Below, piece by piece: positions 3,570-60,582 of a stretch of DNA of 64,000 nucleotides. The stretch spans positions 1 through 64,000 of the forward strand of contig NZ_JAGGPK010000015.1 in assembly GCF_018613855.1 (NCBI RefSeq), given 5' to 3'. Position 1 is the stretch's first letter; every line of letters starts with the position of its first letter. Under the pieces are notes generated by a model. That model made no database searches. It saw nothing but the letters and a program-made list of their open reading frames with translations, and was not told the DNA's origin. Both the position numbers and the translations under genes were made by a program. This stretch comes from Arthrobacter sp. ISL-30 (GTDB taxonomy: Bacteria; Actinomycetota; Actinomycetes; Actinomycetales; Micrococcaceae).

Positions 3570-5234
3570 TCAGTAGCTTGCTGAATACCCCGCAACGAGG
3601 GAGCCGCTAACGGACTCTGTGAGCACCGTGTTCAGAGTCGCTTCAACTGGAACGGGATGCAGTTCTGGTACCGGATGCAGTTCTGGTACCGGAGGCAGTG
3701 CGGGAACCGAAAGCGGTACAGGAACCGAAGGCAGTACGGGAACCGGAGGCGGTACGGGAACCGAAAGCGGCACAGGAACCGGAGGCAGTGCGGGAACCGA
3801 AAGCGGTACGGGAACCGAAAGCGGTACAGGAACCGGAGGCAGCCCAGATACCGGAGGCAGTGCGGGAACCGGAGGCAGCCCAGATACCGGAGGCAGTACG
3901 CGGGCAGGTGTCGGAGCGGGCACAGGAGCCGGAGCAGGCGCGAGTTGCGGGACGGGGTCTTGCAACGGAGTCGTCGTGTTTTGAGCCTCGGCGAGCAGTT
4001 GTTCGGCGGCAGGATCATCAGGCAACGGCGGCTCGCCGGCTATTGGGGCCGTCGTCGTCACGCCAGGCTGCTCCTCAAGGGCGCGTTCCGATGGCACAGG
4101 GAGCACCGGGCCAAGGCCTTCCATCGGAGGAAGCGCCGACGGTGAGGGTGACGGGGCGCTGGCCTGCGCTGAAGGCAGTGGCTCGCCTGCGCTCGGTGGG
4201 ACATAGCTCGGGGCCGCAGCATGGGGAACGTTGTCGTTCTCCGGACCGGGTGGGGGTTCGCCCGGGCCCAGCTGGACGCCTACAAACAACGTCGTTCCGA
4301 CCATGACCGCAGTGCCGGTGGCACCACCCACACCAGCGTGGGTTCGTACCAGATCCAGGCCCCTGGCCACGCCCAGCCCTAAACCTGCCACGCCCTGCTG
4401 TGCTCCCGCCAGGATACCGACGGCGGCACCCCCGGCCGCCGCCTTGCCCGCAATCGGAAACGCAACCCCGGCCACAAGGGGGAAGACGATCCCGCGGATG
4501 CCGGCGCCTACGTCCTGGATCTGAAGATAGAGGCCGAGGCATTTCTTGCATCCATCCAGGTGCTCGCGCACCTGGGTCGCCTGTCGATCCGTCAGGCCAT
4601 TCCGGGCGTAGGCTCCCAGCTTTGCCGAATACCGGGCGCAGTCGGAGTCGGCAAGCGAGTGCGCAATGTGCTGCTGGAGGTACGCCTGGCGAAGGCCTTC
4701 CCGGGCTCGAACCGCAAGTGCCGATACGGCGTTGGCAGACAGTCCGAGCATGGGCGCAACGGCTGCCGGCTGCATGCCGTCGACTTCTGTGTACCACAGC
4801 ACGGCCTGCCAGCGCTCAGGCAAGGAGCGGAAGGAGGCGGCCACGGTTTTTGATTCGAAAGACTCAAGGACCGGGTCCGTGAAGCCGATGGGAGCCTCGA
4901 AGGTAGCCAAGTCCTCGCTGAGGCTCTGGCGCCTGTCCTGACTGCTCTTGTGCGCAGCGAGCCTGGCGATGGACGTGAACAGGTAGGCCCGGAAAAATGC
5001 GTCGGGGCCGCCTCCCGATTGGAGTGTGGCGAGGACGTTGGCAAATGCCTCCGCGGTGAGATCCTCGGCGTCGGACCAGTTCCTGGCGTACCGCCGGGCC
5101 AGTCCTGTGGCGGCTCTATTGTGCCGCTCAAAGAGCTGGGCGTACGCACCGGTCTCTCCGTCGCGAACCCTTGCAATGAGCTGGGCGTCACTGGGATCGG
5201 CCGGTTGGCTACTTTGTGCTGTATCGCTGGGCAT
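3570..5234 (-). CDS. ECF-type sigma factor fused to zinc-finger, membrane and proline-repeat tail
   Basis: This 554-residue fusion has sigma region 2 at about residues 28-75 (AQLFERHNRAATGLARRY...DAEDLTAEAF) and region 4 at about 125-190 (SLPERWQAVLWYTEVDG...LSANAVSALAVRAREGLR). A zf-HC2 anti-sigma-like finger follows (C199, then H225-x3-C229-x2-C232). Next come hydrophobic glycine/alanine-rich segments at about 240-340, including a likely membrane helix, and then a long Pro/Val/Ser tail built of six-residue units such as PVPLSV and PALPPV. The start is the ATG at 5234 because GGAGG lies seven bases upstream; a longer frame from a GTG at 5258 is less likely. Sigma factors with built-in anti-sigma and membrane extensions are known in actinobacteria. 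The target genes are unknown. Confidence 0.85.
   Translation of the reverse strand: MPSDTAQSSQPADPSDAQLIARVRDGETGAYAQLFERHNRAATGLARRYARNWSDAEDLTAEAFANVLATLQSGGGPDAFFRAYLFTSIARLAAHKSSQDRRQSLSEDLATFEAPIGFTDPVLESFESKTVAASFRSLPERWQAVLWYTEVDGMQPAAVAPMLGLSANAVSALAVRAREGLRQAYLQQHIAHSLADSDCARYSAKLGAYARNGLTDRQATQVREHLDGCKKCLGLYLQIQDVGAGIRGIVFPLVAGVAFPIAGKAAAGGAAVGILAGAQQGVAGLGLGVARGLDLVRTHAGVGGATGTAVMVGTTLFVGVQLGPGEPPPGPENDNVPHAAAPSYVPPSAGEPLPSAQASAPSPSPSALPPMEGLGPVLPVPSERALEEQPGVTTTAPIAGEPPLPDDPAAEQLLAEAQNTTTPLQDPVPQLAPAPAPVPAPTPARVLPPVSGLPPVPALPPVSGLPPVPVPLSVPVPLSVPALPPVPVPLSVPVPPPVPVLPSVPVPLSVPALPPVPELHPVPELHPVPVEATLNTVLTESVSGSLVAGYSASY
3654..3901 (-). repeat. 18-bp coding tandem repeats in the sigma-factor tail
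   Basis: About 14 degenerate copies of an 18-bp unit (for example GGAACCGAAAGCGGTACG) encode the Pro-Val six-residue repeats. Neighbouring units differ by one or two bases. Copy number probably varies between strains through slippage or unequal crossing over. Confidence 0.85.
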
Positions 5235-39119: not shown

Positions 39120-39217
39120 AACTCCCCACCTTTGAACCAAGGTCGTCCTGGGCTGCCGCGGAATTCCGGGATTCCTTTGGCTATACCGGCGCTCTCGGCG
39201 TCCAAAAGCGGGGAGTT
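39120..39217. mobile_element. 98-bp TIR element, copy A
   Basis: It begins AACTCCCCACCTTTG and ends CAAAAGCGGGGAGTT, so the ends are inverted repeats of about 15 bp with two mismatches. The right end abuts the stop codon of the nuclease gene (39218). The interior resembles copy B in places (ATACCG at element positions 64-69, TTCC at 45-48). Confidence 0.8.
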
Positions 39218-40069
39218 TCAGCGGCCTCCTCGGGAAGTGAGCACCTTGAGAACCTCCGCAAGGACTCTATCGGGGCTGTACATGAGCGCCTCATAGTCGT
39301 AGCGGAGCAAAAGGAAGCCCCCGATCGTGCTCGCGTTGTTCCGGAATCGATCTTTTTTAACCTGGCGGGGCTCCAGATGGCTTTTGCCGTCGATCTCGAC
39401 GATGAGGATCCCCTCGAGGAGGAAGTCCACGATCCCGATGCCAGCTAATTCGACCTGGGCTTCCAGTCGAATGCCAGCGCTCCAGAAGAGCAACCTGGCC
39501 ACAACTTCAATGGGGGAATCCGCCGAGCCATCCACGAGTTCCAGGACTCGGCGGGCGGCTCCATTCCTGTTTCCCGGGACTCTGGCTCTGAGAAACTCCA
39601 GCGTCGTGCGTCCCTGCGTCACGGCACTCTCAACCATGACTGCGGCTTCTACCTCCGGCAGGCAGCGGAGCGCATGAAGCAATGTGTCCGCGAGGCTGGT
39701 TACAGCATGCGGTCCTTCTGTAGGCACGTAGCTTTCGCGGTGCACAACGTACCCTTTCGCAGCCCCGTGTCGGCAAAAGAGGTGTGGCACTAAAGGTTCG
39801 TTGAGCACCCAAAGCCCATGGTGTCGCCCGGCCGAAACACAGGTCAGACGTCCATTTGCCACGAGGGCCGAAACCAGGTCCGTTGGCGCGTCAGGCAGCA
39901 CCAGCACTCCCCTGCGCTGCCTGATGATGATCCTGTTTTTGACCGCAGACCGGATGACCCGATCAGAAAATCCTGCCTTTCGCAGCGTTGCCGTCGTTGC
40001 AGCCCACCCTGCATATTTCATAAAGCGAACAAGGGATGCGTAGGAATTGCCATTCATCGTGCCATCCAA
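39218..40069 (-). CDS. HTH (AbiEi-like) plus DUF559/Vsr-type nuclease protein, copy 1
   Basis: This 283-residue protein has an N-terminal winged-helix region of the AbiEi antitoxin type (residues about 20-60, ending RIIIRQRRGVLVLPD). Its C-terminal PD-(D/E)XK domain of the DUF559/Vsr kind shows E188 (SPIEVVARLL), D215 (GIVDFLL), then E225-x-D227-x-K229 (IVEIDGKSH) and a basic helix. All catalytic positions are kept, so it may cut DNA. Similar proteins are frequent and unexplained in actinobacteria. It is bracketed by two 98-bp repeat elements. The start may be 40057 (MNGNSYAS). A pure antitoxin role is less likely, because no AbiEii toxin is nearby. Confidence 0.82.
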   Translation of the reverse strand: MDGTMNGNSYASLVRFMKYAGWAATTATLRKAGFSDRVIRSAVKNRIIIRQRRGVLVLPDAPTDLVSALVANGRLTCVSAGRHHGLWVLNEPLVPHLFCRHGAAKGYVVHRESYVPTEGPHAVTSLADTLLHALRCLPEVEAAVMVESAVTQGRTTLEFLRARVPGNRNGAARRVLELVDGSADSPIEVVARLLFWSAGIRLEAQVELAGIGIVDFLLEGILIVEIDGKSHLEPRQVKKDRFRNNASTIGGFLLLRYDYEALMYSPDRVLAEVLKVLTSRGGR

Positions 40070-40140
40070 TAGGTGGCCAGGAGTTGGCAGGGGTGCATAA
40101 GGGGCCTATGTGGAAAACGTGGGTCTCGTTTGCCCGCTGG

Positions 40141-40238
40141 AACTCCCCGGTTTTGATTGAGCGAACCATGGGAAAAGGCCGTATTTCCAAGGATTTTCGA
40201 CGGATACCGCAAGAAGGATTTACCAAAAGCGGGGAGTT
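40141..40238. mobile_element. 98-bp TIR element, copy B
   Basis: It begins AACTCCCCGGTTTTG and ends CAAAAGCGGGGAGTT, with 14 of 15 terminal positions paired. It lies 72 bases upstream of the nuclease gene start, so copies A and B flank that gene. The outer left flank CCCGCTGG is nearly that of copy C (GCCGCTGG). Confidence 0.8.
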
Positions 40239-48099: not shown

Positions 48100-49077
48100 T
48101 CACGTTCGCGGCCCCGCAGATGCCCGACGGCGGCCCGGAACTCCCGCCTTCCGCAGCTTCCGTTCGAGTTCGCCCGGATTGTTCAGATCCGCCCAGACCC
48201 AGCGAACCACGCCGCGTCCCGTCGCTCGAATGCGGTCTTCGCGGAGCTTCTCGTCCACGACCACCTGGCTCGGCATCCTCCCATTGGAGTACTCCGGCTT
48301 CTGGTACTTCTGGATGCCATCGAATTCACCGACTGTCCTTGTTTCTTCCCAATAGAAGTCGGCAAACACGGCGCTCCCTGCCACGTCCGGGATCCGATAT
48401 TGCAGAACCGGACGAGCCAGCCCTGCAGCATGAATGAGGCCGCGACTGTAGGACTCTCCCGCCGAGGCCGATAGGGGATCAGCAAATTCAATGGCGGCTC
48501 GGACGCGTCGTTCCACCGTTGGTGGGTACCGGCCTTCCAGCGCCTCCAGGAGTTGAGCTTTTGTCAAGGCCGGCAGGTGGCACATTAGGTCGGGCTTGAT
48601 CACATGGTCCAGGGGAACAATCGCCTCGGCGAAGGGCACGTAGGCTGCAAGGTCCAGGACAGTGACCACTCGTCCCGTAACCAGCAGGCCGTCCCGCTCC
48701 ACGAAATCCAGCCGGCCCCCTTCTACGAGATGCCTTTTCACCCCGGCTCGTGAACGTCCTCCGCCCCGAAACGTCGTAATGGCATGGACGGGCTGGCCTC
48801 GCAGGATCGTAGGGATGCCCCACACAGCACCTGCGGAATGGCGTGAAAATACAGTCGGTTTGCTAAGCGCTTCGGCTGCAGCCTCTACCCTTAGCCGATA
48901 CTGCTGCCAAGGCTGAAGCTGCCGCCATTCCGACGTCGAAACGTAAATTCCCTGGCGGATTCTCGTCAGCGCTCCGGCTCGGGAAGCTTCAGAGAGCGCC
49001 TTGGTGCTGGCCCCGAGAAGGCTTAGGTCCTTGGCAAGGACCAGTTTGGGCAGTCGTGTCTCGGCTGGTTGACTCAT
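48100..49077 (-). CDS. HTH (AbiEi-like) plus PD-(D/E)XK nuclease protein, copy 2
   Basis: This 325-residue protein has the same layout as the one at 39218 but little direct similarity. An N-terminal winged-helix region (SEASRAGALTRIRQGIYVST) is followed by a middle alpha/beta part (FSRHSAGAVWGIPTILRGQPVHAITT) and a C-terminal nuclease-like fold with E208/R212 (GESYSR), D240, then E251-x-D253 and K257 (VGEFDGIQKY). Function is unknown; it is of the group often labelled AbiEi antitoxin-domain protein, without a toxin partner. Hairpins of one family lie on both sides (48044-48085 and 49176-49211). Confidence 0.8.
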   Translation of the reverse strand: MSQPAETRLPKLVLAKDLSLLGASTKALSEASRAGALTRIRQGIYVSTSEWRQLQPWQQYRLRVEAAAEALSKPTVFSRHSAGAVWGIPTILRGQPVHAITTFRGGGRSRAGVKRHLVEGGRLDFVERDGLLVTGRVVTVLDLAAYVPFAEAIVPLDHVIKPDLMCHLPALTKAQLLEALEGRYPPTVERRVRAAIEFADPLSASAGESYSRGLIHAAGLARPVLQYRIPDVAGSAVFADFYWEETRTVGEFDGIQKYQKPEYSNGRMPSQVVVDEKLREDRIRATGRGVVRWVWADLNNPGELERKLRKAGVPGRRRASAGPRT

Positions 49078-49175
49078 GAAGCTACGGTTCCAGACCGGCA
49101 GAAGCGTTTTCGAGGCGTGGACTTGCCTATGTGGATAACGCGGGAGGACACGGACATGGGCCAGGGATACAGAAA

Positions 49176-59054: not shown

Positions 59055-59396
59055 TGTCATTCGCGACGCCTTAGCTGCTGCTTGTCGCGGATCAGCCGCT
59101 GGAACTCCCCGGCTTTGAAAACCAGGCCGCCGTAAAAACCCCGTAAACACTGAGCTCCCGGCAGTCCGGAAGTCCACGGAGACGGCAAAAGCGGGGAGAT
59201 TACGACGGGGGCCGCAGAAAAAGAGACCTGTCACGAACCGGCTAAATTTACTTCTGCGGGTGTTGGGCGGATATGGGTCGCGGCTCGGCGTGTGCTGTAG
59301 CGGTGGGCGGTCCTTGCCACATTTGGATGAACCTCGGCAGGCTCTTGCCTCGCTCTGATTCGGACGAGATAACAGATGCCGGCGATGACGGTTCTT
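59055..59396. other. Intergenic region with element C
   Basis: This 342-bp gap between the LacI gene and the small orphan gene holds the 98-bp element C. The remaining 196 bases carry only an unconvincing plus-strand frame without a ribosome site. No promoter or hairpin stands out there. Confidence 0.6.
59103..59200. mobile_element. 98-bp TIR element, copy C
   Basis: It begins AACTCCCCGGCTTTG and ends CAAAAGCGGGGAGAT. It matches copy D at about 94 of 98 bases, including the whole interior, and the match runs on for 14 bases beyond the right end (TACGACGG-GGCCGC). Confidence 0.85.
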
Positions 59397-59831
59397 TCAG
59401 AACTGGATCAGGTGCTGTTCGGTGGGTGCGTCTACGACGAGGTCGAAGGCCGTGTCCCGGCCGGTCGCGTGGAGCCGCGCACGGTAGCTGCCTCTCTCAT
59501 CACCCGTTATGGTGCCCACTTCCTTCATTTCCCAGCCGGCGGGTGTGTTGAAGTACGCCCGGCCCGCCGGGAGCACCAGGGACACCTCGTGGATGTCTTC
59601 CCAACCAGGCGACGTTGCCTCCGGTCTTGCCTCCATGACCTCCACCGTCAAGTTAATTGGTCCTGAATCCACACCGGTGGAAACCAAGGGAACCATCAGC
59701 GGAGTTTCCTGCCTCTCACCGCGCATCGCGGCCTGCAAGGCGGCTGTAGGGTCTGCCGGAGGAAAAGGCTCAACAACAAAATTCACAGCATGGCCAGATG
59801 CATGTATGACAAAACCTGCTGACTCGATCAC
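59397..59831 (-). CDS. Hypothetical protein
   Basis: This 144-residue protein is not recognised. It starts with GTG (IESAGFVIHASGHAVNFVVEPFPP) and shows alternating strand-like segments (SGPINLTVEVMEARP, ERGSYRARLHATGRDTAFDLVVDAP) that suggest a small beta-sandwich. It has no signal peptide. It lies with the small lipoprotein gene between repeat copies C and D and on the same strand as the latter. No clear ribosome site is seen. Confidence 0.6.
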   Translation of the reverse strand: MIESAGFVIHASGHAVNFVVEPFPPADPTAALQAAMRGERQETPLMVPLVSTGVDSGPINLTVEVMEARPEATSPGWEDIHEVSLVLPAGRAYFNTPAGWEMKEVGTITGDERGSYRARLHATGRDTAFDLVVDAPTEQHLIQF

Positions 59832-60044: not shown

Positions 60045-60368
60045 TCAGACCCCGGGAGACATAATCGTGAGTTCCCCGCTGCTCAATGCCATAGCCACGC
60101 AGTCCGCAACGCGGAGAGCATCGGCCTCGGATGCTCCTGCTTTCAGCCTGAAGGCTAGCCTGGAGGACGGCATGTCCGCGCTTTGCACTGCTGTCTCCAC
60201 ACTTGGGTCGTTGTCGCACCCGGCCAGGGACGAATAGACAGGGTAGCTTACGCTCACGCCCCATCGGTCGTCGGCAGAAGCGGTGCGTGCATAATCTGTT
60301 GGACCGGACGGCGCAGCACAGGCGGTCAGGAACATAACGAGTATCGGCGCCAAAGCTCGTTTCCGCAT
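60045..60368 (-). CDS. Small putative lipoprotein
   Basis: This 107-residue protein begins with a short signal peptide, MRKRALAPILVMFLTAC, whose last residues form a lipobox with Cys17, so it should be anchored outside the membrane. The mature part is small and contains three further cysteines at most. GGGGG lies seven bases before the ATG. The family is unknown. It and the gene behind it sit between two near-identical 98-bp repeats. Confidence 0.7.
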   Translation of the reverse strand: MRKRALAPILVMFLTACAAPSGPTDYARTASADDRWGVSVSYPVYSSLAGCDNDPSVETAVQSADMPSSRLAFRLKAGASEADALRVADCVAMALSSGELTIMSPGV

Positions 60369-60484: not shown

Positions 60485-60582
60485 ATCTCCCCGGCTTTGA
60501 AAACCCGGCCGCCGTAAAAACCCCGTAAACACTGAGCTCCCGGCAGTCCGAAAGTCCACGGAGACGGCAAAAGCGGGGAGAT
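60485..60582. mobile_element. 98-bp TIR element, copy D
   Basis: It begins ATCTCCCCGGCTTTG and ends CAAAAGCGGGGAGAT. The outer eight bases are perfectly inverse (ATCTCCCC/GGGGAGAT). It is in the same orientation as copy C, 1.38 kb away. Confidence 0.85.

Follow-up and report, generated by a model that had tools for sequence, protein, structure and literature searches.

The window, a 64,000-nucleotide stretch of a contig of Arthrobacter sp. ISL-30, contains on its minus strand, at 39218–40069, a gene for a 283-residue protein that combines a DUF559 nuclease domain (PD-(D/E)XK, Vsr-like) with an N-terminal AbiEi-like wHTH region. The stop codon occupies 39218–39220, and the start is probably the in-frame ATG at 40057 rather than the TTG at 40069. 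The nuclease assignment is based on a Pfam DUF559 match (2e-8) to residues 199–277, the C-terminal third of the protein; its profile score of 34.5 bits against a curated cut-off of 20.6 meets the criterion for a DUF559/Vsr-like nuclease. The N-terminus, residues 13–86, matched the PADLOC AbiEi model (2.7e-5). A profile of 19 homologues matched an endonuclease-like protein in the PDB (3hrl, 1.6e-8), and the positions invariant in all 19 included E188, D215, E225, D227, G228, H231, D240, and R243. An intact E-x-D-x-K motif, claimed in the preliminary description of this DNA, is not supported because the lysine is not conserved among these homologues. NCBIfam held no family for the protein, PHROGs gave none for the three proteins tested (E up to 0.1), and in Pfam the protein matched DUF559 and not Y1_Tnp. 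A single-sequence structure model had a pLDDT of 36. The gene is flanked by a gene for polyprenyl synthetase and by an ORF with a weak likeness to SUKH-1, so that neither of the two adjacent genes, the only ones considered, encodes a cytosine methyltransferase, and neither encodes an AbiEii nucleotidyltransferase toxin.

As had been proposed, the nuclease gene is bracketed by two elements of one palindrome family. Element A (39120–39217) abuts the stop codon, which is included in its outer arm, CCGCTGA, reaching about 39224. Element B (40141–40238) lies upstream of the gene, with its outer arm CCGCTGGAA beginning at about 40134. A spacing of 72 bases between B and the start codon had been reported; this is correct from the TTG at 40069, but is about 84 bp from the probable ATG. 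Elements A and B have near-perfect inverted ends of the form AACTCCCC-NNN-TTTG...CAAA-NNN-GGGGAGTT, a two-ended pattern that was found at seven places in the source genome, while the reversed pattern was found at none. The original characterization of the family as 98 bp elements needs to be revised, as the length is not fixed: the core from TCCCC to GGGGA is usually 80 bp, and 92 bp in the elements of the window. The conserved ends extend over about 22 bp in a set of 87 elements (CCGCtGAatcTCCCCnnnTTTG in the TCCCC type), and whole elements are therefore about 100 bp, or 112 bp for A–D when both outer arms are counted. The outer arms of A–D are not all well preserved.

Elements C (59103–59200) and D (60485–60582), also of the TCCCC type, bracket no DUF559 gene, and none lies beside C. 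They are 1.4 kb apart and 97% identical over 111 bp, with unrelated flanks and no comparable match outside those 111 bp. Judged from sequence comparison, C and D would be the clearest instance of recent copying. The two are direct repeats around two small ORFs without a Pfam match (59397–59831 and 60045–60368), so that a cassette, either carrying other cargo or in decay, could occupy the interval. Folding of whole elements as DNA gave z values of -1.3 and -1.9 for A and -3.5 and -2.6 for B. Simple terminators were considered and rejected, since no T run was seen by eye after A or B and the 5' copy precedes the presumed promoter. Elsewhere in the window, at 3610–3956, is an array of 18-bp spaced repeats with 13 overlapping copies, probably a repetitive coding region.

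The presumed promoter or operator is a box, TTTTCCACATAG, at 40106–40117 on the minus strand, between element B and the nuclease gene. A looser version, TNTSCACA and mostly TTNTCCACATAG, preceded 65 of 70 homologues, about 50–140 bp before the start of homology. The box TTNTCCACATAG also occurs at 49127–49138 (minus strand), before a second wHTH gene of the window, AbiEi_4 (48100–49077), and a third copy with one mismatch is at 1063. It resembles the actinobacterial DnaA box. We have treated it as a promoter or operator because it also precedes the AbiEi_4 gene.

Flanking palindromes of homologous nuclease genes

We sampled 150 genomes of the genus; each has a homologue of the nuclease with an E value no higher than 0.001, one of them barely. 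The closest orthologues, defined by scores above 300 bits, comprise the window gene and 27 others at 58–71% identity. Each of these 28 genes has the 3' element, with at most two mismatches to the consensus. The element follows the stop codon by 1–2 nt in 27 genes and by 23 nt in the remaining one, and the conserved end (CCGCTGA or a near variant) usually includes the stop codon. A clear 5' element is present at 24 of the 28 loci and is degraded in the other four (L064, L068, L070, and L073). The expectation that homologues elsewhere would be flanked by the same kind of elements was therefore met by the closest orthologues; more distant homologues, as described below, are in many but not all cases bracketed by palindromes of their own. 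Four element coordinates in this set were chosen by hand, and nine of 56 elements were omitted from one element alignment. Core lengths from TCCCC to GGGGA at these loci are mostly 79–82 bp, with a few of 68–70 or 91–92 bp. Over all cores measured, there is the same cluster at 79–82 bp with minor classes near 68–71 and 91–92 bp, and single exceptions such as 73 and 87 bp. These classes are about one helical turn apart, a spacing that suggests a single protein complex gripping both ends on duplex DNA.

Another 42 homologues in the genus are more distant (44–49% identity), and their palindromes share the design while differing in the terminal bases. The general design, X5-NNN-TTT...AAA-NNN-X5', gave 64 matches (some overlapping) in the flanks of the 42 loci, compared with five in one shuffle. 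The ends of these subfamilies, in place of TCCCC, are TGACC, CCACC, GGGGC (69–70 bp), and TGCGT (82 bp). When the 5' and 3' termini of a locus were chosen independently, 14.5 of 20 positions agreed; with shuffled partners the figure was 9.2, and the highest of 2000 shuffles reached 11.0. On a protein tree of 70 rows, element type changed 14 times compared with 40.9 times when shuffled, and none of 200 shuffles was as low; 13 of the 70 rows were labeled "other", five of these inside the TCCCC clade, and the TGACC type did not form one clade. That the two termini match each other and that their type tracks the tree indicates that the ends and the protein have diversified together, as neutral flanks would not do so on both sides at once.

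The possibility that the two elements are generally inverted relative to each other was rejected, as the interiors were inverted at 27 and direct at 30 of the 57 loci compared. The comparison left out 13 of the 70 loci (L111, L125, and 11 under the agreement limit). The outer NNN triplets agreed more in the inverted orientation (116 of 171, versus 81, 84, and 88). The longest words shared between the two flanks of window-subfamily loci did not differ from those of swapped flanks; swapped loci share an element type, and other tests were used for this reason.

Beyond the genus, the profile of 19 homologues matched 89 of 149 genomes of the order (E up to 1e-10) and 65 of 246 genomes of the class (E up to 1e-12). 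Their flanks were analyzed with a four-arm test, which scores a pair of palindromes sharing a common arm; the gene end was taken as the first stop after the start of the match, inner stops included. The test used those of the best matches (at most 30 from each search) that lay outside the genus, less one (L203) that was too short. The highest score among 48 swapped-flank controls was 52, and 25 of the 48 loci surpassed it; three of the loci (L181, L190, and L192) have an identical 11-mer on all four arms. At 21 of the 25 passing loci, the elements of the two sides were equal in length within 1 bp (pairs of 71/71, 84/84, 90/90, 66/66, 80/80, 82/82, and 77/77 among them), a property that the score does not reward. 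The hepPS genes that served as a second control reached at most 51 in 25, a value exceeded by 21 of the 28 window-subfamily loci and 24 of the 42 other loci of the genus. Control scores were not beaten at 23 of 48 loci outside the genus, 18 of 42 distant loci in the genus, and 7 of 28 loci of the window subfamily. The AbiEi_4 gene of the window scored 50, within the controls.

Two other DUF559 genes were found in the source genome (G000), at about 23464 of contig C44 (L033) and about 193541 of contig C24 (L034), and scored 63 and 66 in the four-arm test. Three guessed starts were tested for each, and one L034 start (45) had lost the upstream element. Their palindromes are 57/57 and 55/55 bp, unrelated in sequence, with the ends CGAGGTGCGAG (one arm, one change) and GCGGGGTCACT, respectively. 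Together with the window gene, this makes three DUF559 genes identified in the source genome, each bracketed by a palindrome of its own. Further scans added little: a scan of genome contigs gave three weak matches, no homologue was found in viral contigs, and two plasmid records and one phage record had homologues at 31–36% identity.

Full, decayed, and empty sites at one locus

The nuclease gene lies between the polyprenyl synthetase gene and the SUKH-1-like ORF in 58 of 70 homologues, beside one of these two usual neighbors in four, and beside neither in eight. Seven of the 70 (L079, L080, L111, L112, L113, L119, and L125) are at the same locus in the opposite orientation, and in these cassettes the distance from the gene to the 5' element is greater by some 200 bp. 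We surveyed the locus in 28 genomes that were chosen for having weak or other best matches, and obtained it in 27. Six had no nuclease match, and at least five had short fragments only. Both palindromes were kept around a nuclease fragment in three genomes (G065, G010, and G137), and a palindrome without a full gene was present in G139 and, by eye in an alignment, in G142. Three others (G013, G031, and G099) had short empty sites, with neither the gene nor a detectable palindrome. The occurrence of full, decayed, and empty states at one site indicates that the cassette comes, decays, and goes there. The empty sites did not reveal the exact boundaries of insertion.

Copies of the palindromes were sought by exact pattern in the 150 genomes of the genus. 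TCCCC-type elements were found in 53 genomes, TGACC-type elements in 45 (up to 15 copies), and CCACC-type elements in 19 (up to 10 copies). A chance origin of these patterns was rejected, as reversed-pattern controls gave none in the source genome or in the 150 genomes. The elements were found at a higher rate in genomes with the matching type of nuclease gene: 25 of 28 versus 28 of 122 others for TCCCC (Fisher 7e-11), 14 of 15 versus 31 of 135 for TGACC (1e-7), and 10 of 10 versus 9 of 140 for CCACC (8e-11). These tests are uncorrected for relatedness, the gene-type sets overlap, and the typing did not extend to all genes of all genomes; four genomes (G012, G051, G079, and G147) were counted in both the TCCCC and TGACC sets, and four genomes labeled "other" were counted with the surrounding clade (G147 and G051 with TGACC, G072 and G076 with CCACC). 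Mean numbers of TCCCC, TGACC, and CCACC copies were 3.5, 1.1, and 0.0 in genomes with TCCCC genes, 1.7, 6.8, and 0.6 with TGACC genes, and 0.1, 1.4, and 5.4 with CCACC genes, and the excess of the matching type persisted after the two bracketing copies were subtracted. Copy number unrelated to the gene would have spoken against the original proposal; instead, leaving relatedness aside, copies go with gene type. The related prediction that genomes without the gene lack the elements was not fully borne out, as 28 of the 122 genomes without a close orthologue carry TCCCC elements. In two of these exceptions (G065 and G010), the elements surround a decayed nuclease gene.

The set of 87 distinct elements, some of which bracket nuclease genes, gave end consensus sequences of about 22 bp for the three types (CCGCtGAatcTCCCCnnnTTTG, cGTgGCtTCCTGACCTTCTTTG, and CGTgCCgCCACCACCcACTTTG). 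Beyond these ends, pairing of the arms was at background level, and a central stem was frequent in the TGACC and CCACC types. The interiors folded weakly better than shuffled sequences (median z -1.0 to -1.4, below -2 in 29 of 87), and with a signal this weak we do not claim a conserved interior hairpin or RNA. When 16 boundary offsets were allowed for, a direct repeat of at least 5 bp, as expected of a target-site duplication, was found at one of the 87 elements. According to a crude ORF caller, 34 TCCCC loci (about seven of them nuclease loci) comprised 16 between convergent genes, nine between tandem genes, one between divergent genes, one inside a gene, and seven undetermined. Among the best 40 pairs, at least seven groups of dispersed copies occupied a position shared by two or more species, so that many dispersed copies are old. 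The local multiplication that was compared (L265 versus L256) was a tandem duplication including flanking DNA. Five loci (L245, L248, L256, L265, and L267) represent one intergenic site with TGACC and/or CCACC palindromes across species, partly by tandem duplication.

A proposed nuclease cassette and its possible functions

Overall, we consider it reasonably probable that the nuclease gene and its two palindromes form one functional unit, a nuclease cassette, whose binding, cutting, and copying activities are inferred. Recognition of the palindromes by the protein is strongly implied, in the absence of direct evidence for binding or cutting. Mobilization of the palindromes by the nuclease is an inference that has not been demonstrated, and there are no data on insertion polymorphism. 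The best reading of the data is a PD-(D/E)XK nuclease with its own non-autonomous palindromes, which resembles REPtrons and TIRtrons in its working and is not a member of either. We hypothesize that the N-terminal wHTH region recognizes the inverted ends of about 22 bp, as a dimer touching both ends, and that the DUF559 domain would cut at or in the palindrome. Repair of the break, or copying, could then maintain both bracketing palindromes, and might now and then leave non-autonomous palindromes elsewhere, as RAYTs do for REPs. The absence of target-site duplications argues against a cut-and-paste mode of the DDE kind; old duplications could have decayed.

More tentatively, and with evidence that does not quite carry the claim, the wHTH-DUF559 nucleases may make up, across the whole class, a superfamily of protein-only genetic parasites, or of domesticated elements, in which every enzyme recognizes, cuts, and propagates its own palindrome of about 55–112 bp. 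Several independent pairs would then be present per genome, and the specificity of the pairs would evolve fast.

It is also possible, though in our judgment unlikely, that the palindromes are regulatory. The wHTH region would bind them as operators, with the 5' copy serving autoregulation, the 3' copy blocking read-through, and dispersed copies acting as roadblocks or terminators co-opted by the host, while the nuclease acts elsewhere in repair or defense. AbiEi-type domains are reported to autoregulate via binding to inverted repeats (PMC7319586). The position of TCCCC-type elements mostly 3' of genes in the 34 loci classified by the crude ORF caller, and the persistence of copies at orthologous sites, are likewise in keeping with such roles. 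However, autoregulation leaves unexplained why, in several subfamilies, a matching second palindrome lies right at the stop codon or close by, why the two elements are of equal length at loci with their own termini, and how a near-identical pair such as C and D came to have unrelated flanks.

We find somewhat less reason still to regard the unit as a homing cassette, in which the nuclease cuts a lone palindrome, repair inserts the gene, and later recombination leaves a lone palindrome behind, like a solo LTR. That full cassettes, decayed cassettes, lone palindromes, and empty sites all occur at one locus, and that the cassette is found there in both orientations, would fit such a cycle. Yet the bracketing palindromes would stay cuttable, lone copies outnumber cassettes of the same type in many genomes, and the short empty sites of G013, G031, and G099 have no detectable palindrome.

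There is very little to recommend the idea that the nuclease gene is a passenger between two copies that owe their movement to some other enzyme, be it a DDE transposase or a distant RAYT: the dispersed 100-bp inverted-repeat elements do resemble MITEs, but the termini vary in step with the nuclease subfamily, each of the DUF559 genes identified in the source genome, three in all, has a different palindrome, and MITE or RAYT mobilization was rejected given the lack of target-site duplications and of an IS200/RAYT gene (Y1_Tnp, PF01797), which was matched in none of 14 genomes chosen among those with elements and in five of 14 control genomes (DDE transposases with matching ends were outside the search).

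Comparison with known systems

No paper joining DUF559 with flanking palindromes was found in the open-access papers searched, subscription papers and bioRxiv preprints being outside the search. Among nucleases, the window protein shares the DUF559/PD-(D/E)XK domain with Vsr and with VsrA of Caulobacter, a DUF559 nuclease that is reported to be functionally linked to a cytosine methyltransferase (PMC12907096). The window protein differs in its N-terminal wHTH region, its flanking palindromes, and the lack of a neighboring methyltransferase gene. It shares with the AbiE type IV toxin-antitoxin system an AbiEi-like wHTH region at the N-terminus, the part of AbiEi that binds inverted repeats, but no AbiEii toxin gene adjoins it and its C-terminus is a nuclease. 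Members of DUF559 fused to a wHTH region tend to be annotated as lone AbiEi-like genes, and we saw one homologue with a label of that kind. The association with palindromes provides a context for DUF559, a common domain of unknown function, and with dozens of natural pairs of enzyme and site that have different recognition sequences, the specificity code should be readable by comparison.

TIRtrons offer a closer likeness. In these, the gene is flanked by long inverted repeats that differ between genes, are sometimes self-complementary, and can extend into the end of the gene; some genomes contain moderately abundant families of them. Their enzymes, the TIRYTs, are tyrosine HUH transposases (PMC3733652). 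The gene-specific flanking inverted repeats are common to both systems, whereas the DUF559 protein has no HUH domain.

The parallel with RAYTs and REPs that was originally drawn for this locus fits in layout and in co-diversification, with an unrelated enzyme and no Y1 transposase in the 14 genomes. As in REPtrons (RAYT/TnpA-REP with REP/REPIN), the gene is flanked on both sides by palindromes, there are dispersed non-autonomous copies that are mostly intergenic and 3' of genes, and the palindrome type goes with the enzyme type. The enzyme, however, is an HUH/Y1 transposase there and a PD-(D/E)XK (DUF559) nuclease with a wHTH region here. REPs are GTAG-tagged repeats of 20–40 bp, whereas the palindromes described here are about 100 bp with split 22-bp ends, and their end consensus sequences (CCGCtGAatcTCCCC, cGTgGCtTCCTGACC, and CGTgCCgCCACCACC) do not meet the description of a 20–40 bp palindrome with a GTAG-type tag. 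Copy numbers differ as well, as exact patterns gave at most 15 copies and REPs can reach hundreds. If the nuclease does spread its palindromes, this would be a bacterial repeat-spreading system without an HUH or DDE enzyme, and a PD-(D/E)XK counterpart of RAYT/REP.
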